Shown in pieces: positions 1 through 34,563 of a DNA stretch of 38,208 nucleotides. Made by a program: the position numbers and the translations under genes. The notes below the pieces were generated by a model. The model ran no database searches. It saw nothing but the letters and a program-made list of their open reading frames with translations, and was not told where the DNA came from. Within the stretch, counting starts at the first letter, position 1. The number at the start of each line of letters is the position of its first letter. Origin of the DNA: Candidatus Polarisedimenticolia bacterium (GTDB lineage Bacteria > Acidobacteriota > Polarisedimenticolia > Gp22-AA2 > AA152); assembly GCA_035764505.1 (NCBI GenBank), contig DASTZC010000149.1:1-38208 (forward strand). The letters run 5' to 3'.

Positions 1-1983
1 GTCGAAAACGGGAAGATCGCGATCCACGCCCCAGACCTTCTGCCGCAGCGTCGGCACCCAGCGCAGCGGCTCCGACTTGGTGCGCATGACGACGGCCAGC
101 TCCAACGGCCCCTTCTGGGACTCGGGGCGGTACATCTCCGCCCGAGGCGGATCCTCCAGGTTCTGGTGACGCACATCGGCGACCACGCCGATGATCCGCG
201 TCCAGGAGGCATCCGACGCCGCGCTGGCGGAGCGGAGTCCGCGGCCAATCGGGTCCTCGTTCGGCCAGAAGCGGCGCGCCATCGTTTCGTTGATCAACGC
301 CACGGAGCCGCTGTCGGCGCCGTCCTGTTCGTTGAAATCGCGGCCCCGCAGCAACGGGATGCCGAGCGTCCTGAAGTAATCGGTGCCGACGATCAGATAG
401 CCGACGCTGTTCTCATCGCCGCGGCCGGCGACCGGCCGCCCTTCGATGGCGAGGTCGGTCCAGGAATTCGATCCGCCAAGCGGCAGTGTCGAGACGACGC
501 TGGCCGACTGCACCCCGGGGATGGCGCGCACCTGCTCGAGTGCCTGGCGCCAGAAGGCGGAGCGCTGCGCCTGCTCCGGATAGCGCGACTCGGGCAGCGC
601 GATCCGGGCGGAGAGGAGGTTCTGCGTGCGGAATCCGGGATCGACGGAGAACATCGACTGGACGGAGCGGATCATGAGTCCCGCCGCCGCCAGCAGTACC
701 AGCGCCAGCGCCACCTCGGAGACGACCAGCGTCTTCAGGAGGCGGTGACGCGCGTGCCCGGAGGCGCCGCGGCCGCTCTCGCGCAGCGCTCCCATCAGGT
801 CGGAGCGCTTGCGCTGCAGGGCCGGGGCCAGGCCGAAGAGCAATCCGCTGCCCAGCGACAGCGCGAGCATGAAGAGCAGGGCGGTCGCGTCGACCCGGAC
901 CTCGTTGATCCTGGGGACGGTGTCGGGGGCGATGGCCTTGAGGACTTCGACGCCCCAGACCGCCACCAGGGTTCCCGCGATGCCGCCGCACAGCGACAGC
1001 AGAACCGTCTCGGTCAGGACCTGCCGGATCAAGCGGCCGCGCCCCGCGCCGAGGGCGCGGCGGATCGAGAGCTCGCGCTCGCGCGAAGCGGCTCGCGCCA
1101 GCAGCAGGTTGGCGACGTTGGCGCAGCCGATCAGCAGGACGAAGAGGACCGAGAGCTGGATGGTCATCAGCGCCCGGCGCATGTCGCTGCCGAAGACTTC
1201 CTCGTAGGCGTCATTCAGAATCACGCACCAGCCGGTGTTGGTATCGGGGTACTGCTTCTCCAGGCGGCTCGCGATCATGCTGACCTCGGTCAGGGCCTGG
1301 CTCCGCGTGACGCCGGCGCGCAGGCGGCCCGCCGCCAGGTAGCCGTGGTTGTCGCGATCCTGGGTGGCCGGATCGACGTCGAGGGTGGTCCAGATCTCCG
1401 CCGGCGTGTAGAGGAAGGTGAAGCCGCGCGGCATCACCCCGATGATCGTGTGGGTCTTGCCGTTCAGATCGATCTTCCGCCCCACGACCGCCGGGTCGGA
1501 TGCGAAGCGCCGCTCGAACAGGCCGTGGCTGATGATCGCCACCGGCTCGCGCCCGGGGCGATCCTCGCCGGGGAGGAAGCCGCGCCCGAGGGCAGGCTTC
1601 ACGTCGAGCACGTCGAGGAGGTTGGCGGTGCCGGTCATCCCCTCGACCCGCTCCGGATCCCCCTTGCCGGTCAGGGCATAGCTGTCGCGCGTGTAGAGCG
1701 CCAGCTCCTGGAACGATTTCGCCTGCGCCCTCCAGTCGGCGAAATTGCCCGGGGAGACGGAGGTGTTGTCCCATCCTTTCGAGGGGTTGGTCTCCCAGAT
1801 CTGCACGATGCGCTCGGGCGCGGGATACGGCAGGGGCTCCAGCAGCAGGACATGGATCATGCTGAAGACCGAGGTGTTGATGCCGATGCCCAGCGCCATC
1901 GTCAGGATCGCGATGGCGGTGAGGCCTGGCGCTTTCGCCATCATCCGGAAGCCGTACCGCACGTCCTGCAGCAAGGTTCCCAT
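1..1983 (-). CDS. ADOP/MacB-type ABC transporter permease (3' end beyond window)
   Basis: Inner-membrane permease of the MacB/FtsX type; 661 codons are visible and the C-terminus lies past the left edge. The start is the ATG at 1981-1983, preceded by a GGGAGAG ribosome binding site and 12 bases after the stop of the upstream permease. The order seen is a first transmembrane helix at about residues 18-40 (ending in the NTSVFSMIHVLLL type motif), a MacB-like periplasmic core with the usual Q/WxxNP and GF...P segments, an FtsX block at about 270-400 (FVLLIGCANVANLLLARA, then [18 protein letters not shown]), and a second periplasmic core. The final FtsX block is missing only because of the window edge. 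It is the third permease in one operon. The substrate cannot be read from sequence; the family exports lipophilic or peptide substrates or works as a mechanotransducer. Confidence 0.93.
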   Translation of the reverse strand, partial: MGTLLQDVRYGFRMMAKAPGLTAIAILTMALGIGINTSVFSMIHVLLLEPLPYPAPERIVQIWETNPSKGWDNTSVSPGNFADWRAQAKSFQELALYTRDSYALTGKGDPERVEGMTGTANLLDVLDVKPALGRGFLPGEDRPGREPVAIISHGLFERRFASDPAVVGRKIDLNGKTHTIIGVMPRGFTFLYTPAEIWTTLDVDPATQDRDNHGYLAAGRLRAGVTRSQALTEVSMIASRLEKQYPDTNTGWCVILNDAYEEVFGSDMRRALMTIQLSVLFVLLIGCANVANLLLARAASRERELSIRRALGAGRGRLIRQVLTETVLLSLCGGIAGTLVAVWGVEVLKAIAPDTVPRINEVRVDATALLFMLALSLGSGLLFGLAPALQRKRSDLMGALRESGRGASGHARHRLLKTLVVSEVALALVLLAAAGLMIRSVQSMFSVDPGFRTQNLLSARIALPESRYPEQAQRSAFWRQALEQVRAIPGVQSASVVSTLPLGGSNSWTDLAIEGRPVAGRGDENSVGYLIVGTDYFRTLGIPLLRGRDFNEQDGADSGSVALINETMARRFWPNEDPIGRGLRSASAASDASWTRIIGVVADVRHQNLEDPPRAEMYRPESQKGPLELAVVMRTKSEPLRWVPTLRQKVWGVDRDLPVFD

Positions 1984-4440: not shown

Positions 4441-4524
4441 TGCGTCTCCAGGCGCACGGATCGGGGGCCGCGAGATTCCCCGGAGCCTTGCGCTTCGGAG
4501 AATTCTGGGCGGCGAGGCATGGGT

Positions 4525-6927
4525 CTACTCGTAATGCAGCGCGGTGACGGGGTCGACGCTGGCGGCGCGCCGGGCCGGAAAGTAGCAGGCAATCAGGGCG
4601 ACGCCCATCAGCAGCAGCGAGGTGGTCGCATAAGTGAGCGCGTCGAGCGCGCCCACGCCGAACAGGAGCTTCGAGATCAGACGCGTCAGGGCGAAGGCCC
4701 CGCCCAGCCCCAGGACGATGCCGCCCAAAACCAGCATCATCCCCTGGCGCAGGACCATGTCGAGCACGTCACGGCGCTGTGCGCCCAGCGCCATGCGCAC
4801 CCCGATCTCCTGGGTGCGCGCGGCAACGGAGCAGGCCACCACGCCGTAGATCCCCACGGCGGCCAGGATCAGCGCCACCATCGCGAAGAAGCCGATCAGG
4901 GTGGTGGTGAAGCGGCGCGGGGCGGCGGAGGCGCGGATCAGGTCCTGCATCGTGCTGACGTCGGAGACCGGCTGGTCCTTGTCGAGCCCGAAGATCACCT
5001 GGCGCGCCGACGCCGTCAGCTGCGACGGGTCGCCGTCGGTCTTCAGAATGAAGGTATAGGTGTCCTGGGGGATCTGCGCGATCGGCTCGTACATCTGCAA
5101 GGTGTTCTTCGACTCGAGCCCGTAGTGCTTGACGTCCTTGACGACGCCGACGATCTCACGCACCGTGTCCGTGTCGTTCCCCATGCGCAGCTTTCGGCCG
5201 ATCGGGTCCACTCCGGGGAAGAGGCGCTTCACGAAGGTCTCGTTCACCACCGCCACTCGGACGGAAGTCCGATCATCGCGCTCGTTGAACAGGCGTCCCT
5301 TCACCAGCGGAATGCCGAGTACCTTGAAGTAATCGGGACTCACCGCGTACCAGTTCGCCGAAGGCTGGTCACCCGACTCCACCGAGCTTCCCTCGATGGC
5401 GATGGAGTAGATCGTGTCGTTGCCGCCGAAGGGGATGAGCGTGGTGGCCGCGGCCGCTTTCACGCCGGGCAGGACCTGCATCTTCTCGAGCGCCTGCCGC
5501 GCGAAGGTCCACTGGTTCTCGGGCTTGGGGTACTTCTTCTCCGGCAGCGACACGCCCAGCGTCATGACGCCGTCCGGCTGCAGGCCGGTCTCCTGCTGCA
5601 TGACGCGCACGAAGGAGCGCACCTGCAGCCCCGCGCCCACCAGCAGGACCAGGGAGATCGCCACCTGGGTCACCACCAGACCATTGCGCAGGCGGTGCCG
5701 GCCCGTCTCGGTGCCGCGACCTCCCTGCTTGAGGGTATCTTGAAGCCCGGTGTGCGAGATGAGGAAAGCAGGCGCCATCCCGAAGATAAGCCCCGAGAGC
5801 AGTGACAGCCCCAGGGTGAACAAGAAGACGGTCGTGTTGATCCCGACGTTCTGCATGCGAGGCAGATCGCCGGGCTGGAGCCATCGCAGCAACTCGACGC
5901 CCCATTGTCCGAGGAGGAGTCCGAGCCCGCCTCCCACCAGAGACAGGAGCAGGCTCTCGGTGAGGAGCTGGGCGATCAGCCGTCCTCTGCCCGCCCCGAG
6001 GGCGGCGCGCAGAGCGATCTCCTTCTGGCGGGCGGAGCCGCGCGCCAGCAGCAGATTGGTCACGTTGCCGCAGGCAATCAGCAGGACGAAGCCGACGGCG
6101 GCGAACAGCGACAGCAGCGCCGGACGGACGTCGCCGACGATCTCTTCATAAATGGGCACCACGTGGGCGCCCCAGTTCTTGCTCGAATCGGGGTACTGGA
6201 CGGCCTGCGCGTTCGCAATCGTGGCCATCTCGGAGTTGGCGGCCTGGAGAGTAGCTCCGGGCTTCAGCCTCGCCATGACTACCAGGAAGTGCCCGCCGCG
6301 CATCTGCCTTTCGTCGGGCGTGAAGACGAGCGGCATCATCAGATCGGCCCCGGTCGGCAGGCGGAAGCCCTCGGGCATGATTCCGATGACAGTGTAGCTT
6401 TCTCCCCCGAGGGTAATCGGCTGCCCGATGATCTCCTTCTTGCCGCCGAAGCGCCGCTTCCAGATTCCGTCGCTCAGGATGGCGACTTTCTCCTGTCCGG
6501 ATTCCCATTCCCCCGCCCGAAAGGCGCGTCCGATGACCGGCGGGACCCCGATGAGCTCGGAGATGCCGGCGGTGGGCTTCAACACCCCGATGCGCTCCGG
6601 CTCCCCCTCACCCGTCAGCACCATGGAGCTGCTCAGGAGGGCCACCATCGGGTCGAAGGACTTGCTCTGGGCTTGCCAGTCGATGAAGTGGGCCGGGGAA
6701 GCGGTGAACTTGGTCCACCCTTTGACGTGGTTGTGCTCCCAGATCATCATGACCCGGTCGGCGTCCTTGTACTGCAGCGGCTGCAGCAGCACGGCGTGGA
6801 CGACGGAGAAGATGGCGGTGTTGGCGCCGATGCCCAGCCCCAGCGTGAGGACCGCGACGGCGGTGAAGCCGGGATGCTGAAACAGCAGCCTCACTCCGTA
6901 GCGGAGGTCGCGCAGGAGCGAGCGCAT
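4525..6927 (-). CDS. ADOP/MacB-type ABC transporter permease, 800 aa
   Basis: First permease gene after the ATPase; its ATG overlaps the ATPase stop (TGATG), so the two are probably translationally coupled. It has the duplicated MacB core/FtsX layout: helix at about residues 18-40 ([20 protein letters not shown]), periplasmic core, FtsX block at about 270-400 ([20 protein letters not shown]), a helix near 425, a second core, and an FtsX block ending in [17 protein letters not shown]. Because it is the permease closest and coupled to the ATPase, it is the best candidate for the obligate partner of that ATPase. Substrate unknown. Confidence 0.95.
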
Positions 6928-7631
6928 CAGATCGCCTCGACCGTCGTCTCGTCGACGATCCGTCCGTCGAACAGGTGCACCGTGCGGTCGGCATGCCGGG
7001 CGAAGCGCGGGTCGTGGGTCACCATGCAGATAGTCGAGCCGGTGCGGTGCAATCCGCGCAGCATCTCCATCACCGCGTCGCCGTTCTTGGAGTCGAGGTT
7101 TCCGGTCGGCTCGTCGGCCAGGAGCATCAGGGGATCGCCCACCAGGGCGCGGGCTACGGCGACGCGCTGCTGCTGACCGCCCGAGAGCTGGCTCGGCAGA
7201 TGGCGGGCCCGGTGCCCCATGCCCACCTTTTCGAGCGCCTCATTGGCCTTCTTGGCGCGCTCCGGCGCCCGCATGCCGCGGTAGGTCAGCGGCAGCTCGA
7301 CGTTCTCGAACACCGTCAGGTCACCGATCAGGTTGAAGCTCTGGAAGATGAACCCGATCTCGCGGTTGCGGATGCGCGCCCGCTCGCCCAGGTTCAGGTC
7401 CTGCACGGGGCGCCCGTTGAGGACGTAAGCGCCGTCGGTCGGGGAGTCCAGCAACCCCAGGATCGACAGGAGCGTGGACTTGCCGCATCCCGAGGGGCCG
7501 CCGATGGCGACATATTCGCCGGACTTGATCTCGAGATGCACGCCGGAGAGGGCGTGCGTCTCCACCTCGTCGGTGGTGAACACCTTGGTCACCTTCTCCA
7601 GCCGGATTAGGGACTGGCCGTTTTCGCTCAT
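6927..7631 (-). CDS. MacB/LolD-type ABC transporter ATP-binding protein
   Basis: Cytoplasmic ATPase subunit, 234 residues, the normal length for a stand-alone LolD/MacB-type nucleotide-binding protein. Walker A is GPSGCGKS at residues 45-52, the Q-loop glutamine is near 97, the signature LSGGQQQR is at 149-156, Walker B LMLLADEP is at 168-175, and the H-loop histidine is near 206. It lies 34 bp downstream of the adaptor gene and overlaps the first permease by one base, which places it as the motor of the adaptor-ATPase-permease operon. All catalytic residues are present, so it looks functional. Confidence 0.96.
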
Positions 7632-7665
7632 TGCTGCTGCTCCTGTGTTGTAGGGATCTCGAGAG

Positions 7666-8898
7666 TCAGTTCAAACGCACGCGATCAAAAGCGTCCCAGG
7701 CCGACATGTCCGACAGGATGACCTGGTCGCCTTCCTTCAATCCGTCCAGGATTTCCACCGAGTTCACCGACGAACGGCCCATCTTCACCTGCACGCGGCT
7801 CGCCGACGATCCGCCCGGCTCGAGCTTGAACAGCCCGACCGTGCTCTGCTCCCCTCCGAACGCCGGGCGACCCACGAACAGGACGTCGGTCAGCCGCTCC
7901 AGCTCGATGGTTCCGTCCACCGTCAGATCGGGGCGCGCGCCTTTGGGCAGCGCTCCTTCGAGGGCGACGTCGACGGTGACGGTGCCGTTCTGCACCGACG
8001 GATCGATGCGCGAGACCTTGCCGGGGATGATGCCGTTGCGCGTGTCGATCGAGGCGACCTGGCCGATCTGGATGTCGCGCGCCTGCGTCTCGGCGATGCG
8101 GACTTCGGCTTTCAGGCGGCCCGGCTCCGCGACGCGCGCCAGGTTCGCCCCCGGCTGCACGCGCTGGCCGACCTCGACCGGAATCAATTGCAGGACGCCT
8201 TCGACGCCGGCGCGGACCTTCAGGGCACTGAGCTGATCCTGGCGGAGCTTGTAGGCGGCGCGGAAGCGATCGACGCGCGCCTGCTGCACCGCCAGCTGGG
8301 CCTCGGCCGCCCTGGCGCTCATCTCCAGGCGCGAGTCTTCGATCTCGGAGCGTCCCTTCAGCTCCTCGGCGCGCATGCGTGAGAGTTTTTGGGTGATGTC
8401 GGCCACCAGACCGTTTTTCGCCAGCTCGTCGTCGGCCTGGGCCTGCAGCGCCGCCTGCCGGTAGTCGGACTGGACGCCCGCGGCGGCGGCGCGCTGCGTG
8501 AGAAGCGCACTTTCCAGCTGCACCTTGAGGTTGGTCGCTTCCGCCTCCGCCGCATGCAGCTCGGAGGCGGCGTCGGTGGCGGCCACCTCCAGCTCGGGGT
8601 TGCTCAGCTCGAGGATGACGGTGTCGGTCTTCACGGCGGTTCCGGGCAGGACGACCCGGCGCTCCACCCGGCCCTCGGTCACTGCCGGGATCCAGCGGAT
8701 TTCCTCCGGGACCAGGGTGCCGGACCCTCGCACCTGGCGGAGCATCGGGCCGCGCTTGACGGTATCCATCCAGACGGTCCCCTTCTCGATGCTGGGGGCG
8801 GCCGGCTCCAACCGGGAGAGGCCGAAGGTTACGAGGGCGACCAGGACGGCGCCGCCGGCGCCAATCCAGATCCGGCGCTTGCGCTTGTTGGCGGCCAC
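7666..8898 (-). CDS. Efflux periplasmic adaptor (MacA/HlyD-type membrane fusion protein)
   Basis: First gene of the efflux operon. A basic N-terminus (KRKRRIW) leads into one membrane helix at about residues 10-30. A lipoyl/barrel half follows, then an alanine- and glutamine-rich coiled-coil hairpin at roughly 100-215, then the second lipoyl half (VEGVLQLIPVEVGQRVQPGA) and a beta-barrel with the membrane-proximal domain. In tripartite pumps such proteins bridge the permease to an outer-membrane channel; no TolC-like gene is in the window. The coordinate given uses the first canonical start, a GTG at 8898, but it has no ribosome binding site. A strong AGGAG lies at 8929-8933, six bases before an in-frame ATC at 8922-8920, which would give the N-terminus (M)DIARPTSVAANKRK. 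I think translation really begins at 8922. Confidence 0.93.
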   Translation of the reverse strand: MAANKRKRRIWIGAGGAVLVALVTFGLSRLEPAAPSIEKGTVWMDTVKRGPMLRQVRGSGTLVPEEIRWIPAVTEGRVERRVVLPGTAVKTDTVILELSNPELEVAATDAASELHAAEAEATNLKVQLESALLTQRAAAAGVQSDYRQAALQAQADDELAKNGLVADITQKLSRMRAEELKGRSEIEDSRLEMSARAAEAQLAVQQARVDRFRAAYKLRQDQLSALKVRAGVEGVLQLIPVEVGQRVQPGANLARVAEPGRLKAEVRIAETQARDIQIGQVASIDTRNGIIPGKVSRIDPSVQNGTVTVDVALEGALPKGARPDLTVDGTIELERLTDVLFVGRPAFGGEQSTVGLFKLEPGGSSASRVQVKMGRSSVNSVEILDGLKEGDQVILSDMSAWDAFDRVRLN

Positions 8899-11194: not shown

Positions 11195-14100
11195 CTAGGG
11201 GCGGGGCTCGGTCGGATGGTTTTCTGCGGTTCTTTCCTTGCCACGCTTGAACCCAGGGGGGAGCTGGGTCGCGTCACGCGGGACGAAAACCGTCGATGTC
11301 GCGGTCGCGGCATTTCCAGCGGCATCCACCGATCGATACACAGCGGTATAGGTCCTTCCTTCACCGCGAGGATCCCGCTCCGCACGCAGGGAGAAGGTGA
11401 AGTCAGCCGTCCCGATACTCGCTCCCTGGATGTCGAACGTCAGGTCTCCTACTCCAGGAAGGTCGTCCGGCTCGCTGCTCGTGACCGTCAGCAGGGTCAC
11501 GCTGACCCCGCCACACGCATCACTGGACGAGACGTTCGCCGCAACTCCCTTCATTCTCCGGTCCACCGGCCAGAGAATCGTTCGATTGAGGGCCAGCGAA
11601 ATCACCGGCAGGGTTGTGTCGACGACGCTGACTGGGATGGTCACGGCGTCGGATTCGTTCAAGCTATCGGTCACGCGCAGCGTGACGATGTGATTACCGC
11701 GTGGGAGGGTCGCGTTCAGCTGTTCCCCCTGGCCCAGTGACGACTCGCTCGGGCTACCCGCGTCCAGAATCCAATCGAACCGGACGATGGCATCGTGCGT
11801 GCCCGGGGTAGAGTCTGGATCGCCAGAGGAAGTTCCATCCAAGTGAACCGACGCACCGGCAGCGGATTCGCATTCCACCGTCGCCGCCGCCGAAACGCGT
11901 GCAGCGGGAGGATTGTTGACCAGGAGCGTCGTCTCGCCATGGTAGACGAACTCCCGCTCCACGCTCACCGGAACCGTGCTCCCATCGGTTACTACAAGCT
12001 GCATACGATAGCTTTTGCCCGTCTCGAGAGAAGCAATGTTGCCGGTCGAAGGGGGCCAGGATGAGAAAGCGACTCTCACGATGGGGGTGGGGTGAGTCGG
12101 CGTAAGCTTCAGAAAGCTTTCACCAATCTCGACGATCTTCCAGTCGAACGAGGTACCCGGGGAGGCCATTCTCCGCACGCACAGGGGAGAGCCAACCGCC
12201 ATGCCGGACAGGTCCAGGAAGCTCTGGAAATCCGCCGTCGGGGAGGCACAGGTCCCAGGCGCCATCTCGAAATCGGGCATGCCATCGCCGCACCCCAGGG
12301 AGCTGTCCAGATCGAGGATTAGCGGATAGCCGACACTCTCGTTGACGAAGGCAATCCCTTCTCCCGGCACGCCGTCGGGGAGCAAGCCGTCGTCACACAA
12401 GAGACCTGAGATGGCGTCGTCTATTGTAATGAGCGCGGTCTCCGCCGGAAGGACCTCGAGCGATCCCGAAAGCGGATCGCCTTCCGGATCGCGAGCAATC
12501 GCCCTGATCCGCAGCGCATCGCCGCCCCCTGCGATGGTGGAAAGAGTCAGGATCGGCTGGCACAGGTCTCCCGAGCCATCGCCATTGGAATCCCGCTGAT
12601 CCGGGTCGGCGACCCGGGGACATGTGTCGCAGGCATCGCCGTAATGATCATGATCATTGTCGGCCTGCGCAGGATCGGGGACGGACGGACAAAGATCGCA
12701 CGCGTCTCCGACGCCATCGCCATCCTGGTCCGACTGCAGCGGGTTCGAGAGCAACGCGCAGTTGTCGCAGGCGTCCCCCCGTCCATCACCGTCGGCATCT
12801 TCCTGGCTCGGGTTTGTCGTCGCCGGGCAGTTGTCGGACGCAGCGCAGTGTCCGTCCTGGTCGGCATCGTTCTGAGGATCCGACGGACACGGATCGCAGG
12901 CATCGCCTACGGCGTCGCCATCCGAGTCGGTCTGGAGGGGATTGGCCTGTGCAGGGCAGTTGTCCAGCAGGCAGGTGTTCAGTGGAAACCCTGGATTCCC
13001 GGTACCGTCTCCATCGATGTCGGTGCAGGAGTCGCACGCGTCGCCTACCCCATCCCCGTCCACATCCGCCTGCGCAGGATTCGCAACCTCCCGGCAATTG
13101 TCCGGCCCGTCCGGAATGCCATCGTGGTCGAAATCGGAAAACAGCTCGACGGTCAACGGCACTTGCAGGAGTGGATGAGAGGGGTCGTTCGTCTGAATCC
13201 GGATCAGGTCGGTGTAGGTTCCCGTCAGGACGCCGCCTGTCAGGATCGTGGCCGAGACGTCCTGGGAACCTCCGGGAGGTACCGCTCCCGTTCTGGGATT
13301 CAACGCGAGGAAACCCTCTCCATGGATCCAGCGCGCGAAGCCGGTTCCCGACGAGTCGGTCAGGTAGATTCCGGCGACCGGATCGGGAAGGAAGGCCATG
13401 GGTCCGAGGCCGTTGAACGGATGGTTCACGAATCGCCATATGCCGCGGTCGATCGAATACCGGTGCAAAAGCCTCAGATTGCCTGCCGCCGGAATGAAGT
13501 ATTCCCTGGTGACGGGGTCGAGCGCGCCGCCTCCCGTCGTACCGACAGTCGGCGAGCTCAGTCGAGTCCAAATGCCCGTGGAGATGTCGAAGCGCGCGAC
13601 CGACGCACCGCTTCCCGCATGAGCGTAGAGAGTGCCCGCGTGATAGCGCAATCCTCCTGCGATGACGGCGAACGGCGGCGGGGGAAGGGCGACCCTTTCG
13701 TCCGTGACGGGATTCCATCGCACGAAGTTGTTGCCCATTGCGCTGTACAGGTAGGTCATGCCATCGCTTGCCGTGTTCCCGTCGAAGCCGGTGGGCTTGG
13801 CTCGCGACGACCAGGAACGGGCAGCGATGTCATAGACCCTGATGAAGGATGAATTGGAGATGTAAACCTTCCCGTTTAGCAGGGAGATTCCGCTGCAATC
13901 CCCGCTGGCCGGCAGGCTGGGAAGCGTCTCCCAGACGTCGGTATCCCCATGGTAAAGGTAGAATCCGTTCCCGTTGGAGGTATCGGCCGCATAGATGGAG
14001 AGGTGATCCGGATCCTCCGTGAGACAGCGCAGACGCGCCGGACTCGGGCTGAGGGTCCTGATTTCGCCAGGCACTCCTTGATCCATCGGAACGCTGTCCC

Positions 14101-17100
14101 CCGTCGAGCTCGCCGAAGAAGCCGAGTCGGGGAAAGCCGCCCACGCGCTCAGCGAGAATTGCAGATAGCTCCCGCCGGTGTTCAGGACCGTAAGGGTGCG
14201 GGTTTCAGTTTGCCCCAGGAGGACTCTCGACTGTATTGAGCCCGGCAGTACGGAAGCCACGGGAGGCGGGAAGGCCGTCCCCGACAGTGGAACGGTGACG
14301 CTCGGCTCATCGGGATCGTTTGAATCGAGGATCAGCCGTCCCAAAGCGCTCCCGGGATCAACCGGAGAGAAGAAAAGGGTGAACGGGAAGCTGCCTCCCG
14401 GCGGGACCGTCACCGGGGGCTCCAGGCCCGCCAGGGAGAACGGTCCCTCGCACCGGACTCCGGTAATCACCAGGGGCTGCCTGCCCGGATTGACCACGGA
14501 TGCAGAGAGAGAGCTCGTCTGGCCCGTGAAGGCCGAAGGGAACACGGGCGAAGCCGGCACGACGTTCAGCTCGGGAGCTTCGACGACCGTGAGAGGGGCG
14601 GGTAGGATGACCAGCGGCCGCTCCGGATCGTTGCTATAGAGATCGAGCTCGGCGGGATAGGTGCCTGCCGCAAAGGTGCCCGTGTCGAAAGCTATCGGAA
14701 CCGTCACCGTGCTGCCGGCCGAGACGGTGCCGCTCCATGAGCCGGCGCTCACGTAAGGGACGCCGGTGCGCAGCCGTCCCAATCCCATCGCGGAACCGCC
14801 CGGGAAGAAATAGAGGGTAGGAGCCGGGAAAGGGAGCCATGTGATGCTGCCGCTCCTGTTTCCATGAAACATAGTGATCTGGAGTCTTGTCCACCTGCCC
14901 TCGTCGATGGAGTAGGCCAGGATCTCCGGGAAGAAGGCATCTCCCCCGTAGGCGTAGTAGATGCGACCTCCTGGATCCAGCCCGGACTTTCCTGCTGAGA
15001 GAACGGGCAGGTTCGGCAGGATGGTCCAGCGATTGTTCTGAATGTCGTAACGCGCGAAGCTCGTGTCCGTGTGCGCGTAGAGAAAGCCATCCAGGTACTT
15101 CATCCCGCCGCCCTCGGTGAAAAAGTAGGGCGGCGGGGCGAGCTCGACCACTTCTCCGGTCATCCGGTTCCTGCGACGCAGCCTGGTGTTATACGTAGCG
15201 TAAATGTACGTGCCTCCGTCCCAGGCCATCGCCGCGCGATCGCCGAAGCTCTGGATAGCCTGCAGGGACCATGAATTCGAGGCGATGTCGTAGATGCCGA
15301 AGTTGACGCCGTAGGAATGTATCTTTCCATCGATGATGAGGCTGGGGCAGCCCGTGCCGAAGGGCGGGTCGGCGAGCCGCTCCCAGCGACCCGACTGCAC
15401 GCGATAGCGGTAGAAGCCTTCGAAAAAGGCCTGCCCGTAGATGATGGAGTTGGCCGGGTCATCGAGGATACACGTGAAGTAGCCGGGCGCGGGAGAGAGA
15501 TTCTCGAGGGTGCCCGGCGGCGACAGACCGGGAGGAATGGACCCCGGGCTTTGAGGGGGAAACGAAAGAGCCGGCGCCGGAAACCGTGTGGCCAGCGAAA
15601 AGGACAGGTCGGACCCACCGTCATTCGAGACGAGGAGATCGCGGATTCCAATATTGCCGTTATAGAACGTCGAGGCGAGCGAAGCAGGCTCGACGCGCAG
15701 ACGGGGTTTCGATTGCGCCAGCGCGGAAATCGGCAAGCTGGCGACGGGGGTCCGCGGATCGTCGGATTCCACTGTCAGAGCTCCGGAAAATGTGCCGGAG
15801 GCCGTGGGAGAAAACACGATCGTCACGACCCGCGATACGCCGATCGGAATACTGTCCGGAACTCCCGAGGCGCTGAATTCCGGAGGGAGCCCGACGCCGC
15901 GAATGTGCAGGACGTCGGTTCCCCGGTTCTTGATCTGCACCGGAAGGGAAACGGGCGTACCCGGCATCGTGGCGGGAAACTCGAGGCCGGCAGGCTCCAG
16001 GCGGATTTCGGGAGCCCCCAGCACCCGCACGGTCACCGGCACTTCCAGCAGGGGACGGACTGGATCATTGCTGCGAATCTCTGCCAGGGAGGAGTAGACC
16101 CCTCCGACCATCGAAGATGAGTCGATCGAAAGCTGCACTTCCCGGGTGCCGCCCGGAGGAACTGAGCCACTGGTGACGGTCGCCCCGAGGTACGCGGGTG
16201 CGGTTCGGACCCTGTAGAACCCTGTGTTGTCCGAGCTGGGGATGATGTAGATTCCAGGATTGGCGCCGGTCAGCCACGCGATGCCGCCCTGACCCATGCC
16301 TATTGGAAGCTGCGCGCTGCTCCAGGTTCCGGTGTCGATCGAATACCAATCCAGCGTGGAGTCCGGCCACTTAGATAGCGTGTAGAAGCGGCGCGTGCCC
16401 GGATCGATGGTATATCCGTGGGCCTCGTGGGGAAGGTACGGCAAGACAGTCCATCGGTTGCCGGCGAGATCGAAGCGCAGGAAGTTCTTCGCGGATGGAG
16501 CTGCGAAGAGCTGGCCCTCGAAGTACCGCAGTCCGGATCGCATGTCGAAATTGGTCGGCGGCGTGGGAAGGGAGCTCCTGGCGCCACTGACGGGATCGAA
16601 GCGGACCACCTCCGAATACTGGGCGAGGTAGAGAAAGCGCTCACCGTCGCTGGTGATGGCGACCGCATCGTCCCCGAGGGGACTCTCCAGGATCGACCAA
16701 GTGTCGGTTCCGATGTCGTAGACGCCCATCTGCCAGTCGTCCCACGTCATCGTATAGATCTTCCCATCGAGCACCGCCGCGCCGCACCAGTACATTCTCA
16801 CGGGTGCATCCGCCAGGCGGACCCAGCTGTCGTTGGCTGCCGAGTATCGCCAGAATTCCCGGTTCCCTTGCCACTGGCCATACAGCATCTGATTCTGAGA
16901 GTTCGCGACGATGCAGGTGAGCGGCACCGCGGTCGGCCGCAGCGTTTCGAAAGGTCCCGGAAGCTCGGATTGCGCCGTCGGAGTCGTCGCCGGCGCCGGT
17001 TCGGAAGCTTGCGGAGGATCTTCCAGGGCCGTCCCTGAGAGGCTCGTGGATCCGGTATCGAGAGCGCTGTCCGGTCGGAGACCGAGAGTGAAGAAGAGCG

Positions 17101-19027
17101 GTCCTGCTCCGGAGTTGCGGAGGACCAGCGTTCGTGTCGTGGATTCCCCGATAGGGACCTCGATCGAGATGGCAGCCGGGTCCACTTCAATCGAAGGAGC
17201 GGCTTCGGTATACACGTGACTCACGTTCGAAAGCGGTCCCGCGTTGGCGGCCTCGTCCCTGGCTTTCAGCGCGAAGTAGTAATCCGTGGAGAACTCGAGA
17301 TTCGGGACTGAGAGGTGTTCCGAGGTGCCCGCCGGCGAGGGGTCCGGCGGCGTCCAGACCCGGATCGCAGCGGAGAAGTTCGCCTCGGTGATGGGTGCGG
17401 TGGAATAGCGGACCTCGTAGAGAGCTGCTGTCCCGGAAGCACCGTCATCGCCCGTCGCCGTCCAGGTGAGAGTAACCGTGGCCCCAGTGGCACTGCCGGT
17501 CAGATCCTGGATGGCGCCCGGCGGAATCACGTCGAGAGTCGAAATCGGCCGGAAGGCGTTCAGCCTGCCTCCCGTGACCAGCCTTCCCGCCAGCGATGGA
17601 ATCGGATCGACCGAGCGCAAGAGGGCTTGTTTCAAACCGAGCACATCAATCGTGGGATGTGCCGCACGCACCAGGGCCGCGGCTCCGGCGACGTGCGGGG
17701 CCGCCATGGAGGTTCCGCTCAGGTATCCGTAGGCATTTCCCGGAAGAGTGCTCAGGATGGAGTAGCCCGGCGCTCCGAGATCGATGGTCGTCGGGCCATA
17801 GCTCGAAAAGGAGGCGAGACCGTCGTAATAGTCTGTGGCCGCCACCGCGACAATCGTCGGAAGATCGAAGGCGGGAGGGTAATCCGGCTCGACGTCGCTG
17901 TTGGAGGAAGCGTTGTCCGCTGCCGCGACGAAGAGCACTTCCGCGGCCCCCGCCCTTGCGATGGCGTCGTACAGGGACTGGGAGAAGTCAGGGCCGCCCC
18001 AGGAGGCATTGATAATCTTGGCCCCCATCGCCGCGGCGTAGTCAATCGCCGCGATGGCGTCTGCGTCCGTACCGTCCCCAGAGGCATTGAATGCTTTTAG
18101 CGGCATCAGGCTGACCTGCCAGCAGACTCCCGTCACACCAATACCGTTGTTCCCAGCGGCGCCAATGATTCCCGACACGTGAGTCCCGTGGCGCTGATCG
18201 TCGGAGGGATCGTTGTCGTGGTTGACGAAATCCCATCCATGGACGTCGTCGACATATCCGTTGCCGTCATCATCCAGGCCATTGCCCTCGATCTCTCCTT
18301 CGTTGGTCCAGAGGTTGTCCCGGAGATCGAGGTGGGACATATCCATGCCGCTGTCGATAACCGCCACGATGACGTCGCGACTCCCGGTGGTCAGATCCCA
18401 GGCACTCTCGGCCCGGATGTCTGCACCGGCGCGTCCTCTCTGCCCGGTATTGTTCAGGGCGTCCATTTCGGGGTAACGCGGATCGTTGGGAACGGCATCG
18501 ATTCGTCGAATGTAATTCGGCTCGACGTAGCGCACGTGCGGGTTCTTCCGCAGGCGCGCGATAGCCTCTCCGGTCGTCATGCCCTTGCCAAGCTTCCAGT
18601 GCTCCGCTCCGTTCCGAAAGCGCCGAACTTTCGCGGCGGAAACTTGGGCTTTGGCGCTGGCTTGTTCGGGGAGACCTGCTCCATCTTCAAAGCGAACAAT
18701 CACTTCCCCGGGAACGAAGCGTGCGCTACTCGACGACGCATGAGGTGGCGGGCCTTGGGAGGGGCCTTGAGAAGGGCTCTGGGATGCAGTCCCTGCGCTC
18801 AGGAGGATCAATAGAACGATTGGTGCGAGCAGGACCGAGCGGCCAGTTGAAGAGGTCAGCAGCACTTCAGCTCTCCGACGCCAGGCGAAATGTGAGCCGG
18901 GACCCATCAGGTCGCGAAGCATGTTCGTTTTCGCGCGCGTGGAAGGCGCAAAGCGTGTCCGCAGCGGGCGCGACCTGAATGCCTTGGCAATGGTCAATCT
19001 GATTGGCGCAGAGTCTACCATGGTCAT
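11195..19027 (-). CDS. Giant secreted subtilase (S8) with beta-propeller, Ig-like and thrombospondin type 3 repeats
   Basis: About 2610 residues. A membrane/signal segment lies at about 64-80, an inhibitor-like prodomain at about 100-175, and the S8 catalytic domain at about 195-480 with the triad Asp225 (VIDSG), His280 (HGTHVSG) and Ser440 (GTSMAAPH). A fibronectin III-like domain follows at about 500-605. Then come three large units, each a Kelch-like propeller (about 700-945, 1180-1430 and 1665-1910) set inside an Ig-like domain of the kind ending in IRSNDPxxPLLxVPVTV; separate ASH/HYDIN-like Ig domains follow the first and second. Thrombospondin type 3 calcium-binding repeats (DxDGDGxGDACD) occupy about 1965-2155, and PKD/Ig-like domains end the protein. 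No sorting tail is visible. The start is the ATG at 19027 with TGGAGGG just upstream; 18922 or 18907 would give a more usual signal peptide. The longer frame back to 19111 is supplied by repeat copy A and is rejected. It is probably a secreted or surface protease with binding modules. Confidence 0.9.
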
Positions 19028-20704: not shown

Positions 20705-21712
20705 TCAGCCGGCGCGGCGGTAGGCGCGCGGGGAAGTCCGGTGCCAGCGGCGGAAGGCGTGGTGGAACGAGGTTGGATCGGCGTAGCCGAGAAGGAACGC
20801 CACCTCGGAAGCGGCGATTCCTTTGCGATGCAACAAGGCGCCGGACATCCGGCGGCGCAGGTCCTCCAGGACCTGGCGGAATGAAGTTCCCTCTTCACTC
20901 AGAGAGCGCTGCAGCGTTCGGGGGCTGACCGACAGGATCGAGGCGATGTGCTCCAGCGAAGGCGCGCCGCTGCTGAGCTCGGTCCACAGGGCGCGGCTTA
21001 CGCGGCCGGTCCAGGTCCGCTCCTCCAGCTCGCGCAGCTTCTGCTCGGCCAGCCGGTCGAGGTAGCCGGCGAGCGTCTCGTCAGCCTGCAGCACCGGCAT
21101 CTCCATCTGCGCGGCGCGATAGCGCAGGGCTGCTTTGGGCTGACCGAAGCGTAGGGGCGCCGTGAAGAAGCGACGATGATGGGAGACGTCCTTCAGCTTC
21201 GGATAAGGGAGCTCCACTTCCACGGGCGACAGCGGGTTTCCCGAGAGCTGGCGCAGAAGGGCCACGATGTTCGCGAGTCGGAGATCGATCGGGTGGCGCA
21301 GCGTCTCGAAATGCGGGTCGGACTCCAGGACGATGCGGCATTGATCGTCGTCCGTCTCCACGTGGAGGCGGACGGTTTCGGCGACGATAGAGCTGTAGCG
21401 GGAGAGTCGGTGCAGGGCGCGCTTCAGCGTTCGGCTGTAGTAGAGCGAGTAGCTCACCAGTCCGAAAGGCGCGGCCGGACCCTTTCCCTCCATCAATGTC
21501 AGCCCAAGAGCCTCGTCGGGGATTTGCTGCGCCAGGGCGTGCCAGAGCTTCCATACCTTCTCGGACGGGATCCTGCCGTCGGGATCCTTCAGCTCCGCCG
21601 CCGTCAGGCCGGCTGCGGCCATCAGAGAACGTCGATCGGCGCCCAGACTTTGAGCCTGATCGAGCAGCACGAGGGGAACACGCGTGAGGGAACTGGGACC
21701 ATACGGCCGCAT
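20705..21712 (-). CDS. AraC-family transcriptional regulator, 335 aa
   Basis: DNA-binding regulator of the OruR/ArgR-like AraC type. An N-terminal arabinose-binding-like sensing domain (about residues 15-200, with RIPSEKVWKLWHALA and FGLVSYSLYYSRTLKRAL) is followed by a C-terminal double helix-turn-helix at about 235-333: SLEHIASILSVSPRTLQRSL, then ASEVAFLLGYADPTSFHHAF and a final SPRAYRR. Length is normal. The start ATG at 21712 has GGGAGAG upstream. It stands alone between repeat copies B and C, with no co-transcribed gene on its strand, so its targets and effector are unknown. Confidence 0.93.
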   Translation of the reverse strand: MRPYGPSSLTRVPLVLLDQAQSLGADRRSLMAAAGLTAAELKDPDGRIPSEKVWKLWHALAQQIPDEALGLTLMEGKGPAAPFGLVSYSLYYSRTLKRALHRLSRYSSIVAETVRLHVETDDDQCRIVLESDPHFETLRHPIDLRLANIVALLRQLSGNPLSPVEVELPYPKLKDVSHHRRFFTAPLRFGQPKAALRYRAAQMEMPVLQADETLAGYLDRLAEQKLRELEERTWTGRVSRALWTELSSGAPSLEHIASILSVSPRTLQRSLSEEGTSFRQVLEDLRRRMSGALLHRKGIAASEVAFLLGYADPTSFHHAFRRWHRTSPRAYRRAG

Positions 21713-21805
21713 GGGCTCTCCCGAGTCGGCTCATGCTACCAGAAAGAGGGATTTGCCCGCGGGTGGTGGGCCTGTTGGGACTTGGAGATGAAAAGCGGGA
21801 TTTTC

Positions 21806-21983
21806 GAGCCGCGGAGGCGCTTCCTCGTCCAGCCCGGGCAGGGCGGTCGGCGCCCTTCCAGGGCTCGCGCCCCCGCGGCCCAATCTCCCGATGGCGTGAG
21901 GGTCATCGGAAGTGTGCCAAGCCTAGGCCGTGCGACGCGCACCGTCAGTGATAGAACGCGCCATTTCCCTGCTACGACGCGCC
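21806..21983 (+). repeat. Dispersed structured repeat, copy C
   Basis: Third and most diverged copy, same direction. The 76-nt hairpin (21806-21881) keeps the outer arms GAGCCGCGGAGGCGC with GCGCCCCCGCGGCCC. It has different but paired inner arms (AGCCC with GGGCT, GGGCG with CGCCC), a sign that structure rather than sequence is conserved. The tail keeps CCCGAT, GGAAGTGTGCCAAGCCTAGG, then TCAGTGATAGAACGCGCCA and CTACGACGCGCC. It fills the gap between araC and the end of the nuo operon. Confidence 0.75.
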
Positions 21984-22002
21984 ACCGGTCCCGGTTGCGT
22001 GA

Positions 22003-23475
22003 CTACAGCAGCGAGCGGGTGAGGTTCAGGAACCAGACGGGGAGGATGCCCAGGAGGATGGTGGCGATGGCGGAGACGCCCAGCGACACCCCCTCAGCGG
22101 CGGTGAGCGGCGGGCCGGGGGTGGTGGTGTTGGGCTCCTTCATATACATGTTGACGATGACGCGCAAATAGTAGCAGGCGCCGATGACGGAGTTCAGGAG
22201 CCCCATGACCGCCAGCAGGTAGAACTTGCCGTCGACAGCGGCGCGGAACAGGAAGAACTTCCCGAGGAAGCCGGCCATCGGCGGGATGCCGGTGAGCGAC
22301 AGCATGAAGATCGCCATCATCGCCGCGATGACGGGACGGCGGCGCGCCAGGCCGGAGTAGCTGTACAGCGAGAAGGCCTCCTCCCCTTCCCCCCCGTCCT
22401 TACCCAGCAGCGAGGCGATGGCGAACGCCCCCAGATTCATGAAGGTGTAGCCGGCCAGGTAATAGAGGATGGCGGAGAGGGCCTCGGCGCGATCGGCCAC
22501 CGAAGAAGTGACGACGACTCCTACCAGCAGGTAGCCGGCGTGCGCCACCGACGAGTAGGCCAGCATCCTCTTGATGTTGGTCTGCGCCAGGGCCACGACG
22601 TTGCCGGCGGTCATGGTGGCGATGGCGAGCACGGTGAGCATCGCCACCCAGCTCGCCTGCGCCTGCGGTCCCTGAAAGCCGACGGTGAAGATGCGCAGGA
22701 CCATGGCCAGCGCCGCCGCCTTCGTGCCCGCCGCCATGAAGCCGGCCACCGGCGCGGGCGCCCCCTGGTAGACGTCGGGGATCCAGAAGTGGAACGGCGC
22801 CGCTCCCAACTTGAAGGCCAGGCCGATCAGGATCAACCCCATTCCCAGCATGGCGCGGCTGTCGATCGGCATGTCGGGAGGCAGCGCGAAGGCGCGCGTC
22901 ACGCCGCGCAGGTCGACGCTGCGGGTGACGCCGTAGATCAGCGCGATGCCGTACAGCAGGAACGAGGTGGCGAAGGCCCCGAGGAGAAAATACTTCAGCG
23001 AGGACTCCACCGATTTCTCATGGTCGCGCGTGAACCCGGCCAGGACGTAGAGAGAGATCGACAGGATCTCCAGACCCAGGAACAAGGTGAGGAGGTTCTC
23101 GCTCGCCGACATCAGCATCATGCCGATCGTGGCGCACATGACCAGGACGTGGTACTCCCCCAGCCCCTGGCCGTCCTTCTCCACCAGCGGGATGGAGGTG
23201 AGGACCGTGAGCCCCGCCGTCGCCAGAAAGAGCATCCAGAAGATCAGAGCGAAGCGGTCGACGATCATGGCGCCGGAGAAGAGCGTCACCGTCACGTTGT
23301 CCTGGATCAGCTTCATCAGCGGGATCGCGGCGAAAATGATGCAGCCGAAGGCAAGATAGCCTGCCTCGCTGCCCGAGCGCTTGAACAGAGAGACCAGCAG
23401 CAGCACTGCCGCGGTCCAGAGCTCCATGGCGAGAACGGGAGAGAGTGGAACGAGGGCGGCCGGAATCGACATCAT
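22003..23475 (-). CDS. nuoN: NADH-quinone oxidoreductase subunit N
   Basis: Antiporter-like proton-pumping membrane subunit of complex I, about 490 residues, mostly hydrophobic helices. NuoN features include LFLGLEILSISLYVLAGF, GLAFKLGAAPFHFWIPDVYQ and ALAQTNIKRMLAYSSVAHAG, which carry the conserved Glu and Lys residues of the half-channels. The ATG at 23475 overlaps the nuoL stop (ATGA). It is the last gene of the operon. It follows nuoL directly; the usual nuoM between them is missing. It is closer to NuoN than to NuoM by the motifs I can see. Confidence 0.94.
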   Translation of the reverse strand: MMSIPAALVPLSPVLAMELWTAAVLLLVSLFKRSGSEAGYLAFGCIIFAAIPLMKLIQDNVTVTLFSGAMIVDRFALIFWMLFLATAGLTVLTSIPLVEKDGQGLGEYHVLVMCATIGMMLMSASENLLTLFLGLEILSISLYVLAGFTRDHEKSVESSLKYFLLGAFATSFLLYGIALIYGVTRSVDLRGVTRAFALPPDMPIDSRAMLGMGLILIGLAFKLGAAPFHFWIPDVYQGAPAPVAGFMAAGTKAAALAMVLRIFTVGFQGPQAQASWVAMLTVLAIATMTAGNVVALAQTNIKRMLAYSSVAHAGYLLVGVVVTSSVADRAEALSAILYYLAGYTFMNLGAFAIASLLGKDGGEGEEAFSLYSYSGLARRRPVIAAMMAIFMLSLTGIPPMAGFLGKFFLFRAAVDGKFYLLAVMGLLNSVIGACYYLRVIVNMYMKEPNTTTPGPPLTAAEGVSLGVSAIATILLGILPVWFLNLTRSLL

Positions 23476-25481
23476 GCCAGATACCAAAGAACGGCGAGCA
23501 CGCCGAACATGAACCAGAGAGCGTAGCGCCGCACCTGGCCGGTGTGGAAGAGCTTCAAGAGCTGAGAGCAGACTTCAGTGAAGGCGCCGACGGCATTCAC
23601 CAGGCCATCCACGATGCGCCGGTCGAAGGCGGCGAGCAGATTGCACTTCCACCAGTAGGGCTTCACGATGATCCGGTCGTACAGCTCATCGACATAGAAC
23701 TTGTTGGCGAGCAGGTCGGCGAGGCGCGGGTACATCGCCGCCAGGCGCTGCGGGATCTCGGGGCGCGCGCGGTAGAAACGATAGGCGGTGAAGATGGACA
23801 CCGCCACGACACCCAGAGCGAGGAGCATCAGAAGGTACTCGAGCTGCGCCATCCCGGCATGCGATTCGGCGGCGGCTTTCATGGGCTCGCCCCCGGCCTC
23901 CACCGTGCCGGCCGGCTCGAAGACCGGGGCCAGGAAGCGCTCGAATGCGTTGAGGTCACGGCCGAAGCTGAGGCTGGCCGGAATGCCGACCAGGCCGCCG
24001 ACGGCCGAGAGCAGGGCCAGGATGATCAGAGGAATGGTCATCACTTTCGGCGACTCGTGCAGATGGTGCGCCGTCTCCTGGTCCATGCGCCCCTCGCCGT
24101 AAAAGCAGAGGAACACCAGGCGGAACATATAGAAGGTGGTCAGGGCGGCGGCGATCAGTCCGATGGCCCAGAAGATCGGCCCGCCCAGGCCGAGCGGGTT
24201 TCCGGCGCCGAACGCCTTCCAGAGGATCTCGTCCTTGCTGAAGTAGCCCGAGAGCGGCGGGATGCCGGCGATAGCCAAAGTGCCCACCAAAAATGTCGCG
24301 AAGGTGATGGGCAGCGTCTTCTTCAACCCGCCCATCTTCCTGAGGTCCTGCTCACCGCTCATGGCGTGAATGACGCTGCCGGAGCCCAGGAAGAGGAGCG
24401 CCTTGAAGAAGGCATGCGTCATCAGATGGAAGATGGCCGCGGTGAACGCGCCGACGCCCGCCGCCAGGAACATGTAGCCGAGCTGGCTCACCGTGGAATA
24501 GGCCAGCACCTTCTTGATGTCGTTCTGGCGCAGCGCCATGCTCGCCGCGAAGATCGCCGTGAGCGCCCCCACCGTGGCGACCACCATCAAAGCCTGCGGC
24601 CCCTGCAGGTAGATCGCCGAGCAGCGGCAGACCATGTAGACACCCGCCGTCACCATCGTTGCGGCATGGATCAGGGCGGACACCGGCGTGGGACCCGCCA
24701 TCGCATCGGGGAGCCAGACATAAAGCGGAATCTGCGCGCTCTTGCCGCAGGCGCCGAAGAACAGCAACACTCCGATAGCCGCCGCCACCACCGGCGTCAG
24801 ATGCGACGCCTGCGCCATCACCGAGGTGAAATCGAGCGTCCCCAGCGAGGCGAAGATCCAGGCCATCGCCAGGACGAATCCCATGTCGCCGACCCGGTTC
24901 ACCAGGAAGGCCTTCTTCCCCGCATCGGCCGCGCTGTCCTTCGGGTAGTCGAAGCCGATCAGCAGGTACGAGCACAACCCCACCCCTTCCCACCCCACGA
25001 ACATCACCGGGAAGCTGGAGCCCAGCACCAGCGTCAGCATCATCGCCATGAACAGGTTCAAATAGGCGAAGTAGCGCCAGTAACCTTCCTCGTGGGCCAT
25101 GTAGCCGACAGAGTAGACATGGATCAGGAAGCCGACTCCGGTCACCACCAGCAGCATGACCGCCGACAGGGGATCCAGCGTGAAGCCCCAGGGGATCGAG
25201 AACTCGGCCCCCTGCCTGCCGCGGCCGGCGTGCAGCCACTCGGCTGCCGTCAGCGTGACGCGCTTCGCGTCCTGGTCGACGTCCAGGCGTCCCGCGATCG
25301 GGGTGACCGATTCGAGATGGCCCAGCTGCATGACCGCGCCGAGCGACAGGAAGAAAGCCACGAGGACCGTTCCGCAGGCGATGATTCCCACCACCGGCTT
25401 GGACAGGCGCCGTCCCAGCAGGCCGTTGAGGACGAAGCCGGCCAGGGGAAGCAGCGGAATGAGATAGAGGGCTTTCAGCAC
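23472..25481 (-). CDS. nuoL: NADH-quinone oxidoreductase subunit L
   Basis: Largest antiporter-like subunit, 669 residues with a GTG start. The core contains VGWEGVGLCSYLLIGF, KSAQIPLYVWLPDAMAGPTP, ALIHAATMVTAGVYM, KKVLAYSTVSQLGYMFLAAG and THAFFKALLFLGSGSVIHAM, all diagnostic of NuoL. The C-terminus carries the long region that forms the lateral helix and final anchor (FYVDELYDRIIVKPYWWKC). It lies 13 bp after nuoK and overlaps nuoN. Key charged residues are present, so it should pump. Confidence 0.97.
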   Translation of the reverse strand: MLKALYLIPLLPLAGFVLNGLLGRRLSKPVVGIIACGTVLVAFFLSLGAVMQLGHLESVTPIAGRLDVDQDAKRVTLTAAEWLHAGRGRQGAEFSIPWGFTLDPLSAVMLLVVTGVGFLIHVYSVGYMAHEEGYWRYFAYLNLFMAMMLTLVLGSSFPVMFVGWEGVGLCSYLLIGFDYPKDSAADAGKKAFLVNRVGDMGFVLAMAWIFASLGTLDFTSVMAQASHLTPVVAAAIGVLLFFGACGKSAQIPLYVWLPDAMAGPTPVSALIHAATMVTAGVYMVCRCSAIYLQGPQALMVVATVGALTAIFAASMALRQNDIKKVLAYSTVSQLGYMFLAAGVGAFTAAIFHLMTHAFFKALLFLGSGSVIHAMSGEQDLRKMGGLKKTLPITFATFLVGTLAIAGIPPLSGYFSKDEILWKAFGAGNPLGLGGPIFWAIGLIAAALTTFYMFRLVFLCFYGEGRMDQETAHHLHESPKVMTIPLIILALLSAVGGLVGIPASLSFGRDLNAFERFLAPVFEPAGTVEAGGEPMKAAAESHAGMAQLEYLLMLLALGVVAVSIFTAYRFYRARPEIPQRLAAMYPRLADLLANKFYVDELYDRIIVKPYWWKCNLLAAFDRRIVDGLVNAVGAFTEVCSQLLKLFHTGQVRRYALWFMFGVLAVLWYLA

Positions 25482-25494
25482 GATGAACGCAGCC

Positions 25495-25794
25495 TCACCA
25501 CTTCATCAGGTTGACGTCGTCGACGTCGACGCTCTGACGCTTGCGGAACACGGCGATGACGATGCCTAGCCCGACGGCGGCTTCCGCCGCCGCCACGGTC
25601 ATCACGAAGAAGATGAAGATATGGCCCGCCATGGAGCGCAGCTCGTAGGCGTAGGCCGCGAAGGTCAGGTTCACGGCGTTGAGCATCAGCTCGATGCACA
25701 TCAGGATGACGATGGCGTTGCGGCGCACCAGGACGCCCACCACGCCGATGGTGAAGAGCACGGCGGCCACCAGGGGAAGGAAGGAGGTGATCAT
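25495..25794 (-). CDS. nuoK: NADH-quinone oxidoreductase subunit K
   Basis: Small three-helix membrane subunit, 99 residues. It has the two conserved membrane glutamates in [16 protein letters not shown] and [19 protein letters not shown]. The ATG overlaps the nuoJ stop (ATGA). Length and order are normal. Confidence 0.97.
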
Positions 25795-27337: not shown

Positions 27338-27345
27338 CGTTTCTC

Positions 27346-28995: not shown

Positions 28996-29003
28996 GCTTT
29001 CCT

Positions 29004-31965: not shown

Positions 31966-31973
31966 CGCCCGAC

Positions 31974-32429: not shown

Positions 32430-32433
32430 CGCC

Positions 32434-32799: not shown

Positions 32800-32866
32800 C
32801 GGGAGGGCGCTCCCCGTGATGGCCACGAAGGCGTGGAAGTCGCAGATGGGGCTAAAGAACCGGCGG

Positions 32867-34546: not shown

Positions 34547-34563
34547 TCCAGCAGGATTTTCCC

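Follow-up and report, generated by a model that had tools for sequence, protein, structure and literature searches.

The window analysed here is a stretch of 38,208 nucleotides from a Candidatus Polarisedimenticolia bacterium of the phylum Acidobacteriota (contig DASTZC010000149.1), and our subject is a gene on its minus strand (11195..19027) for a subtilase of 2610 amino acids, read from an ATG at 19027, with GGAGG directly 5' of it, to a stop codon ending at 11195. The protein contains three Kelch propellers, and sequence and model data indicate that each of them is nested inside a single immunoglobulin-like (Ig) domain, as the original prediction for this DNA had proposed. The split lies between strands C and D of the host Ig. 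The same interruption recurs in related proteins, where the Kelch propeller is one among numerous kinds of insert in the split, a point that goes beyond the earlier prediction. The architecture is well supported by computation, and the function is inferred from it.

The three units (A, B and C) were delimited by eye, and half models built later agreed with these boundaries. Each unit opens with an Ig N-half (39-40 residues) and closes with an Ig C-half (about 60 residues); between them lie a linker and the propeller, which is about 250 residues long, or 277-295 when linkers are counted, and a complete Ig of about 100 residues stands between A and B and another between B and C. Unit A has its N-half at residues 610-648 (17084..17200, minus strand, as all features of the protein), its propeller at 693-943 (16199..16951) and its C-half at 944-1004 (16016..16198); it is followed by intact spacer Ig 1 at 1005-1106 (15710..16015), where PF22544 has its best stretch at 1008-1094. 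Unit B comprises residues 1107-1146 (15590..15709), 1174-1422 (14762..15508) and 1423-1483 (14579..14761), and spacer Ig 2 covers 1484-1587 (14267..14578), with an ASH match (PF15780) at 1498-1573. The corresponding parts of unit C are residues 1588-1627 (14147..14266), 1656-1903 (13319..14062) and 1904-1963 (13139..13318). The halves were assigned from the unit alignment and the half models, in unit B also from the predicted structure, and both spacers fall in the spacer lineage of the Ig tree described below. Propellers A and C were recognised by Pfam and the unit alignment and propeller B by its predicted structure; the Kelch motifs of the protein score above the curated cut-offs (Kelch_6 E 6.7e-11, 42.2 bits; Kelch_1 E 1.5e-7, 31.2 bits).

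Several lines of evidence argue that the two halves belong to one domain. When the inserts were removed from ten of the 88 units of the class set (see below), all ten matched PF22544 over the joint at E 0.1 or better (best 4.9e-10), and for unit A the match extends over residues 3-83 of the 100 in the joined halves and scores 25.0 bits, just short of the 25.5 required. Combined into a profile, the ten joined units found HYDIN chains among the solved structures at E 1.3e-17, a value that adds up numerous weak hits along a long and repetitive sequence; the strongest individual HYDIN match covers profile positions 18-81 and thus spans the joint at about 39. Hosts that lack an insert altogether were found in loci L033, L036, L037, L038 and L039, where 6-7 residues separate the model cores and the halves score 36-59 bits, and one protein (L138, from the phylum of a Verrucomicrobia bacterium) has three empty and two filled hosts. 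Over all uninterrupted homologues the gap between the halves is 3-9 residues.

Predicted structures point in the same direction. An AlphaFold2 model of spacer Ig 1, unit B and spacer Ig 2 (588 residues, 1003-1590; 8 sequences) had a mean predicted local distance difference test score (pLDDT) of 82.7 and a predicted template modelling score (pTM) of 0.52. In this model the insert comes after strand 139-146, which is the third one of the host, and the propeller has 24 strands in 172-418, read as six blades of four, which superpose on the Kelch domain of human NS1-BP over 241 residues (Z 24.2, 2.7 Angstrom). The top 20 Foldseek matches were ciliary arrays rich in Ig domains. In a model of a relative, a unit of L040 (Acidobacteria bacterium Prado002; 3 sequences) whose insert belongs to the MYD class, named after its MYDGGN motif, the split lies between strands E131-139 and E410-413. 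Here 6fvi, one ASH domain from CEP192, could be superposed with 105 residues of the range 97..467 (2.1 Angstrom, Z 13.1), and further single ASH, MSP and PapD-like domains superpose on 90-106 residues at 1.9-3.7 Angstrom with nearly the same range. The N-half (97-139) can give only 43 of the superposed residues, and the range ends at the last residue of the C-half. The MYD insert, with pLDDT blocks of 24-71, was too poorly predicted for its fold to be named; the Ig parts were better, and only these were used. That the halves pack together was thus borne out in the relative, and the window model agrees with it without testing the packing directly.

The class set comprised 88 interrupted units from 22 Acidobacteriota proteins, taken from the window and from loci of the same class. 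Of 103 pairings between an N-half and a C-half, 13 were skipped because they had no N-half, a gap under 30 or a gap over 450; L022 accounted for five of these and was left with no unit. Two of the remaining 90 were double pairings and were dropped. The N-half match ends at model position 37-39 of 39 in 84 of the units (four had no matching hit), and the C-half match starts at 1-3 of 61 in 85. Because the same interruption recurs in all 88 units of these 22 proteins, it is not a product of chance.

Among the 41 genomes of the window's class, 22 match the units at E 0.001, and a profile of C-half, spacer and N-half (E 1e-30) matches at least 15 of the phylum's 347 genomes, of which 14 belong to the class or are closer still; the phylum-level surveys scored the best 8 to 11 candidates per genome, and their counts are possibly low. 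Two of the loci, L040 and L020 (genome G033, same class), share identical first 17,209 bases, which places the class in Acidobacteriota. Around the Flammeovirgaceae locus L041 at least 25 of 395 genomes match, and 19 regions from 15 of the 25 matching genomes, together with L041, gave a Bacteroidota set of 70 units in 22 proteins, from which ten C-halves without an N-half were left out; one added region of another Acidobacteriota class gave no unit. In this set the N-half ends at 37-39 in 64 units and at 29-32 in six, and the C-half starts at 1-8. Including linkers, the inserts are 194-308 residues long in the class and 164-307 in Bacteroidota. As judged from these alignments, the split site is near-constant. 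In the phylum of the Verrucomicrobia locus L043 at least 3 of 288 genomes match, and in Actinomycetota, the phylum of the Solirubrobacteraceae locus L042, none of 296 did in a best-candidate survey run without a positive control. Locus L042 itself (1185-2027) encodes an insert-like Kelch domain that stands free near the N end of its protein, without an Ig host. Residues 610-1963 had no match among 72,556 plasmid records at E 1e-5, and on viral contigs 11 loci showed weak Kelch-type similarity (21-42% in the best segments).

The slot is occupied by very different domains. In the class it holds ten sequence classes of insert, namely NIDO-like (38 of the 88), YncE-like (12), Kelch (11), GAT1 (9), MYD (7), GAT2 (5), LAM (2), MAM (2), ROS3 (1) and X44 (1); GAT1, GAT2 and ROS3 possibly belong to a single superfamily. 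We use the terms GATase-like and MAM-like because part of the members match such families (ThuA, and in Bacteroidota DUF4350 and MBTPS1_4th as well) and from reading by eye, and the LamG match of the LAM class falls just under its cut-off. Pfam recognised NIDO in 36 of the inserts, SGL in 12, Kelch_6 in nine, Arylesterase in eight, ThuA in four and Laminin_G_3 in two. The window's own genome encodes two more such proteins side by side, of 3587 and 4216 residues, whose inserts are two alpha/beta kinds of GATase-like appearance, a YncE-like propeller, a NIDO-like domain and Kelch propellers. Among the 70 Bacteroidota inserts, nine are GAT2-like, seven YncE-like, four NIDO-like and one Kelch, and the other 49 belong to none of the classes seen in Acidobacteriota, with an unnamed class of 21 members as their largest group; choice_anch_J is matched by seven and ThuA by nine. 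Two further GATase-like Pfam models, MBTPS1_4th and IFT52_GIFT, are matched by four and three of the 70, and MBTPS1, the site-1 protease, is itself a subtilase. At E 0.1 no Pfam match was obtained for two members of MYD and for one member each of X44, the Bacteroidota class of 21 and a Bacteroidota class of six (the inserts tried were L040:7996-8808, L028:8153-8950, L115:6898-7554, L026:9768-10400 and L117:6644-7426).

Split hosts and intact spacers are, on sequence grounds, two lineages: when 43 spacer Igs were placed in one tree with 93 hosts, of which 88 were split (entered with their halves joined) and five empty, one branch parted the two kinds with a Shimodaira-Hasegawa-like approximate likelihood ratio (SH-aLRT) support of 100. 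The distance from a C-half to the next N-half, taken over 66 neighbouring unit pairs, is 103-116 residues in 45 pairs, corresponding to one spacer, 223-228 in 17 (a spacer and about 120 residues) and 435-440 in four; 64 of these distances were tabulated, and two further values of 105 replace the double pairings, which gave -369, -328, 7 and 8. In the 17 pairs the extra residues precede the spacer Ig and contain cysteines that look conserved by eye, for example in the L040 frame from 1195, between the end of a Kelch unit (about 2008) and the start of the Ig (about 2125), and also in L010 and L011. They apparently make up a second domain, which would be situated close to the spacer's first strand.

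The clearest sign of exchange between hosts comes from L026, a frame of 5454 residues, in which the protein identity among four successive hosts is 74-90% for the N-half and 66-90% for the C-half, and their DNA identity 84-93%. Their inserts are, in order, X44, YncE-like, MYD and YncE-like; across classes these are 22-29% identical in forced alignments, and the two YncE-like ones share 76%. The likeness of the hosts ends near the end of strand C and resumes near strand D. Such near-alike hosts with different inserts thus point to different recent histories of hosts and inserts, the sequences indicating that inserts have been exchanged, and recombination through the repeated hosts and spacers would be the simplest route. 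We claim no number of exchanges, as the counts of insert changes derived from trees (23; 25; without empty hosts) depend on one MYD insert (L026 unit 46) that these trees carry as NIDO-like, a label with no bearing on the branch between hosts and spacers; when the first host was compared with later hosts in 15 proteins, five changes were placed on a poorly resolved host tree.

The suggestion that the three propellers of the window are internal duplications found no support in the pairwise comparison. They are 34-37% identical to one another over 240-244 residues, against 37-39% to the nearest propellers of other proteins; the N-halves of the units share 31-42% and the C-halves 32-40%. In a tree of 13 propellers the three stand on long branches, A joining B weakly (81/61) and C lying elsewhere. 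A recent internal duplication of all three is supported neither by the identities nor by the best tree, and a constraint holding them together gave an approximately unbiased p-value (p-AU) of 0.19 and was not rejected.

The N-terminal part of the protein begins with a fervidolysin-type prodomain at residues 96-171 (18515..18742; PF22148, E 1.3e-11) and continues with a peptidase S8 domain at 217-473 (17609..18379; PF00082, E 9.8e-58, 196.2 bits against a cut-off of 21.8). The Asp, His and Ser motifs of the latter are all present (VIDSG with D225, HGTH with H283, GTSMAAPH with S440), and we take these three to be the catalytic residues. An Fn3-like domain at 505-602 (17222..17515) matches PF00041 at E 0.0043 and 17.7 bits, under the curated cut-off of 25. 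Thrombospondin type 3 (TSP3) repeats follow unit C at about residues 1964-2155 (12563..13138), where TSP_3 (PF02412, E 3.8e-23) matches in five stretches and the solved structure of cartilage oligomeric matrix protein (3fby) matches residues 1991-2156. A HYDIN-type Ig match (E 8.6e-17) and the NCBIfam match choice_anch_D were also obtained, so that the predicted combination of a subtilase, TSP3 repeats and separate ASH/HYDIN-type Ig domains was recovered by Pfam and NCBIfam. We agree with the earlier view that this is an unusual architecture for a protease, probably an extracellular one. At the C-terminal end, a module at residues 2369-2592 (11252..11923) recurs in pieces in proteins C220, C239, C6, C193, C74 and C258 of the same genome at 40-51% identity. 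It may be a shared surface module; against this, more than 100 residues come after it in the L011 protein. Downstream of the protease gene (1996-8898, minus strand) lie genes for an HlyD-like adaptor, an ABC ATPase and two MacB/FtsX-like permeases, possibly an export or efflux set, and upstream (20705-38126, minus strand) an AraC-type regulator (20705-21712) and several genes for NADH-quinone oxidoreductase (complex I).

Split Ig-like domains are already known from RTX adhesins and from lipin, and what sets the present case apart from the RTX adhesins is the position of the split, the make-up of the chain and the variety of the inserts. The closest known kind is that of the RTX adhesins (AhLap of Aeromonas hydrophila, FrhA of Vibrio cholerae, MpIBP), in which some domains of an Ig-like extender chain are reported to be discontinuous and to bud out a ligand-binding domain with adjacent ends, and both papers take the split domain as a marker of ligand-binding domains (PMC12077191, PMC10865825). 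The window protein likewise has a discontinuous Ig-like domain holding a whole inserted domain. In AhLap the split domains are found in the C-terminal ligand-binding region, the chain leaves the RTX-type unit after the first strand, and the protein carries RTX repeats and a type I secretion signal; an N-terminal retention domain is a further feature of this kind of adhesin. In the window protein the rod alternates split with intact Igs, the insert follows the third strand, and the N end is a subtilase prodomain with an S8 domain. No RTX family was among the 20 Pfam families matched by the window protein at E up to 1, and the wide range of inserts in its relatives is unlike the RTX adhesins. 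The phosphatidic acid phosphatase lipin/Pah is a second precedent, its Ig-like domain being formed from two regions 250-500 residues apart (PMC7066176); it has one such domain, and the stretch in between is called a linker. The best solved structure for the catalytic domain was that of the secreted S8 protease deseasin MCP-01 (PDB 3vv3, E 2.7e-92), and the likeness is to that domain, which makes up the whole matched chain of 334 residues, so that the match includes no split Ig array. The ASH arrays of HYDIN, CFAP and CEP192, which are eukaryotic ciliary or centrosomal proteins, share the Ig type, as both the joined halves and the intact Igs match the PF22544/ASH families. In a literature search that mostly did not reach subscription journals, none of the papers listed gave an account of subtilases whose split Ig holds propellers or a mixture of inserts.

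We consider it probable that the protein is a display rack, a subtilisin-like protease whose rod of host and spacer Igs carries binding modules in a docking split. The protease, probably secreted, would be extended C-terminally by a rod of Ig-like (ASH/PapD-like) domains, in which a host Ig split after its third strand alternates with an intact spacer Ig. Each host in the window carries a six-bladed Kelch propeller tethered on its N side by a Pro/Ser-rich linker. All three propellers would thus project from the rod, and the chain itself continues to the TSP3 repeats, which are expected to bind calcium. The host split would serve as a general docking site that is empty or filled by many kinds of domain in relatives, and inserts would be swapped between hosts, most simply by recombination through the repeated DNA of hosts and spacers on either side. 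Binding of ligands, be they polymers, partner cells or substrates, is the most likely task of the propellers, which would in this way position the protease, and the protease may act on what the inserts bind. More tentatively, and at somewhat less than even chance, the loop of this one Ig lineage could be a general insertion site in at least three bacterial phyla, a plug-in display often mounted on subtilases, with ten or more insert classes (at least four of them Pfam-less in the members tried) that recombination swaps in frame.

Read differently, the Ig halves would be separate small domains with the propellers strung between them as beads. Both joints of the window model (148-168 and 420-427) have a pLDDT below 50, and among the 50 matches listed for this model the superpositions cover the propeller region 168-422 and none an Ig, both of which would suit such an arrangement. 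We nevertheless reject it as highly improbable, since insert-free homologues leave gaps of only a few residues between the halves, the halves, once joined, fit a single Ig family with the match running through the joint, and in the relative a range spanning both halves superposes on single ASH and PapD domains; judged from the window model, each half would also lack strands needed for a sandwich. Packing of the halves in the window protein itself is supported rather than measured because the structural list was filled by propellers, and the direction in which the propeller points is not fixed by a model with 8 sequences, a pTM of 0.52 and weak joints. These weak joints also count against the reading that we favour, as do several other points. 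The ciliary Foldseek matches have low template modelling scores (0.16-0.20 by query in the top 20), and the superposition concerns a relative and not the protein of the window; the insert in that model is of low confidence (mean pLDDT 61.1), and the output gives the first and last aligned residue only. The half models were built from the same 88 units, which makes the class figures for the split position partly circular, as the Bacteroidota figures are not. In addition, the host trees are poorly resolved (100 columns), and near-alike hosts with different inserts are clear in one protein only.

It is also conceivable, but in our view rather unlikely, that the inserts have a structural or protective role, bracing or shielding the rod, or were carried along by duplication of the array, with no specific ligand. 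The inserts are of very mixed types, the window's own propellers have strongly diverged from one another, and several proteins repeat one insert type in every unit (L023, L025, L029 and L030 are all NIDO-like), the last of which also counts against the display reading. However, Kelch, NIDO, LamG-like and choice-of-anchor J domains are often binders. In RTX adhesins an insert of a split domain is reported to bind fucosylated glycans (PMC12077191, PMC10865825); of the three AhLap inserts one bound cells, and the two others bound no erythrocytes. Still less probable is that the inserts are enzymes or regulators forming a multi-enzyme complex on one chain. The family matches to SGL (12/88), Arylesterase (8/88) and ThuA (4/88 in the class, 9/70 in Bacteroidota) would fit such a role, but the family names of propellers may follow fold, and for two GATase-like inserts of L010 no match to families of this sort is better than E 0.02.

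The system could be of use beyond this protein. Domain insertion is usually told case by case, and here one loop takes propellers, GATase-, NIDO-, LamG- and MAM-like as well as unnamed domains, with empty sites as controls, sometimes within a single protein. The rules of tolerated insertion thereby become directly testable, and the host Ig could be a scaffold for domain grafting. In the giant proteins of uncultured bacteria, the contents of the split would flag candidate binding domains.

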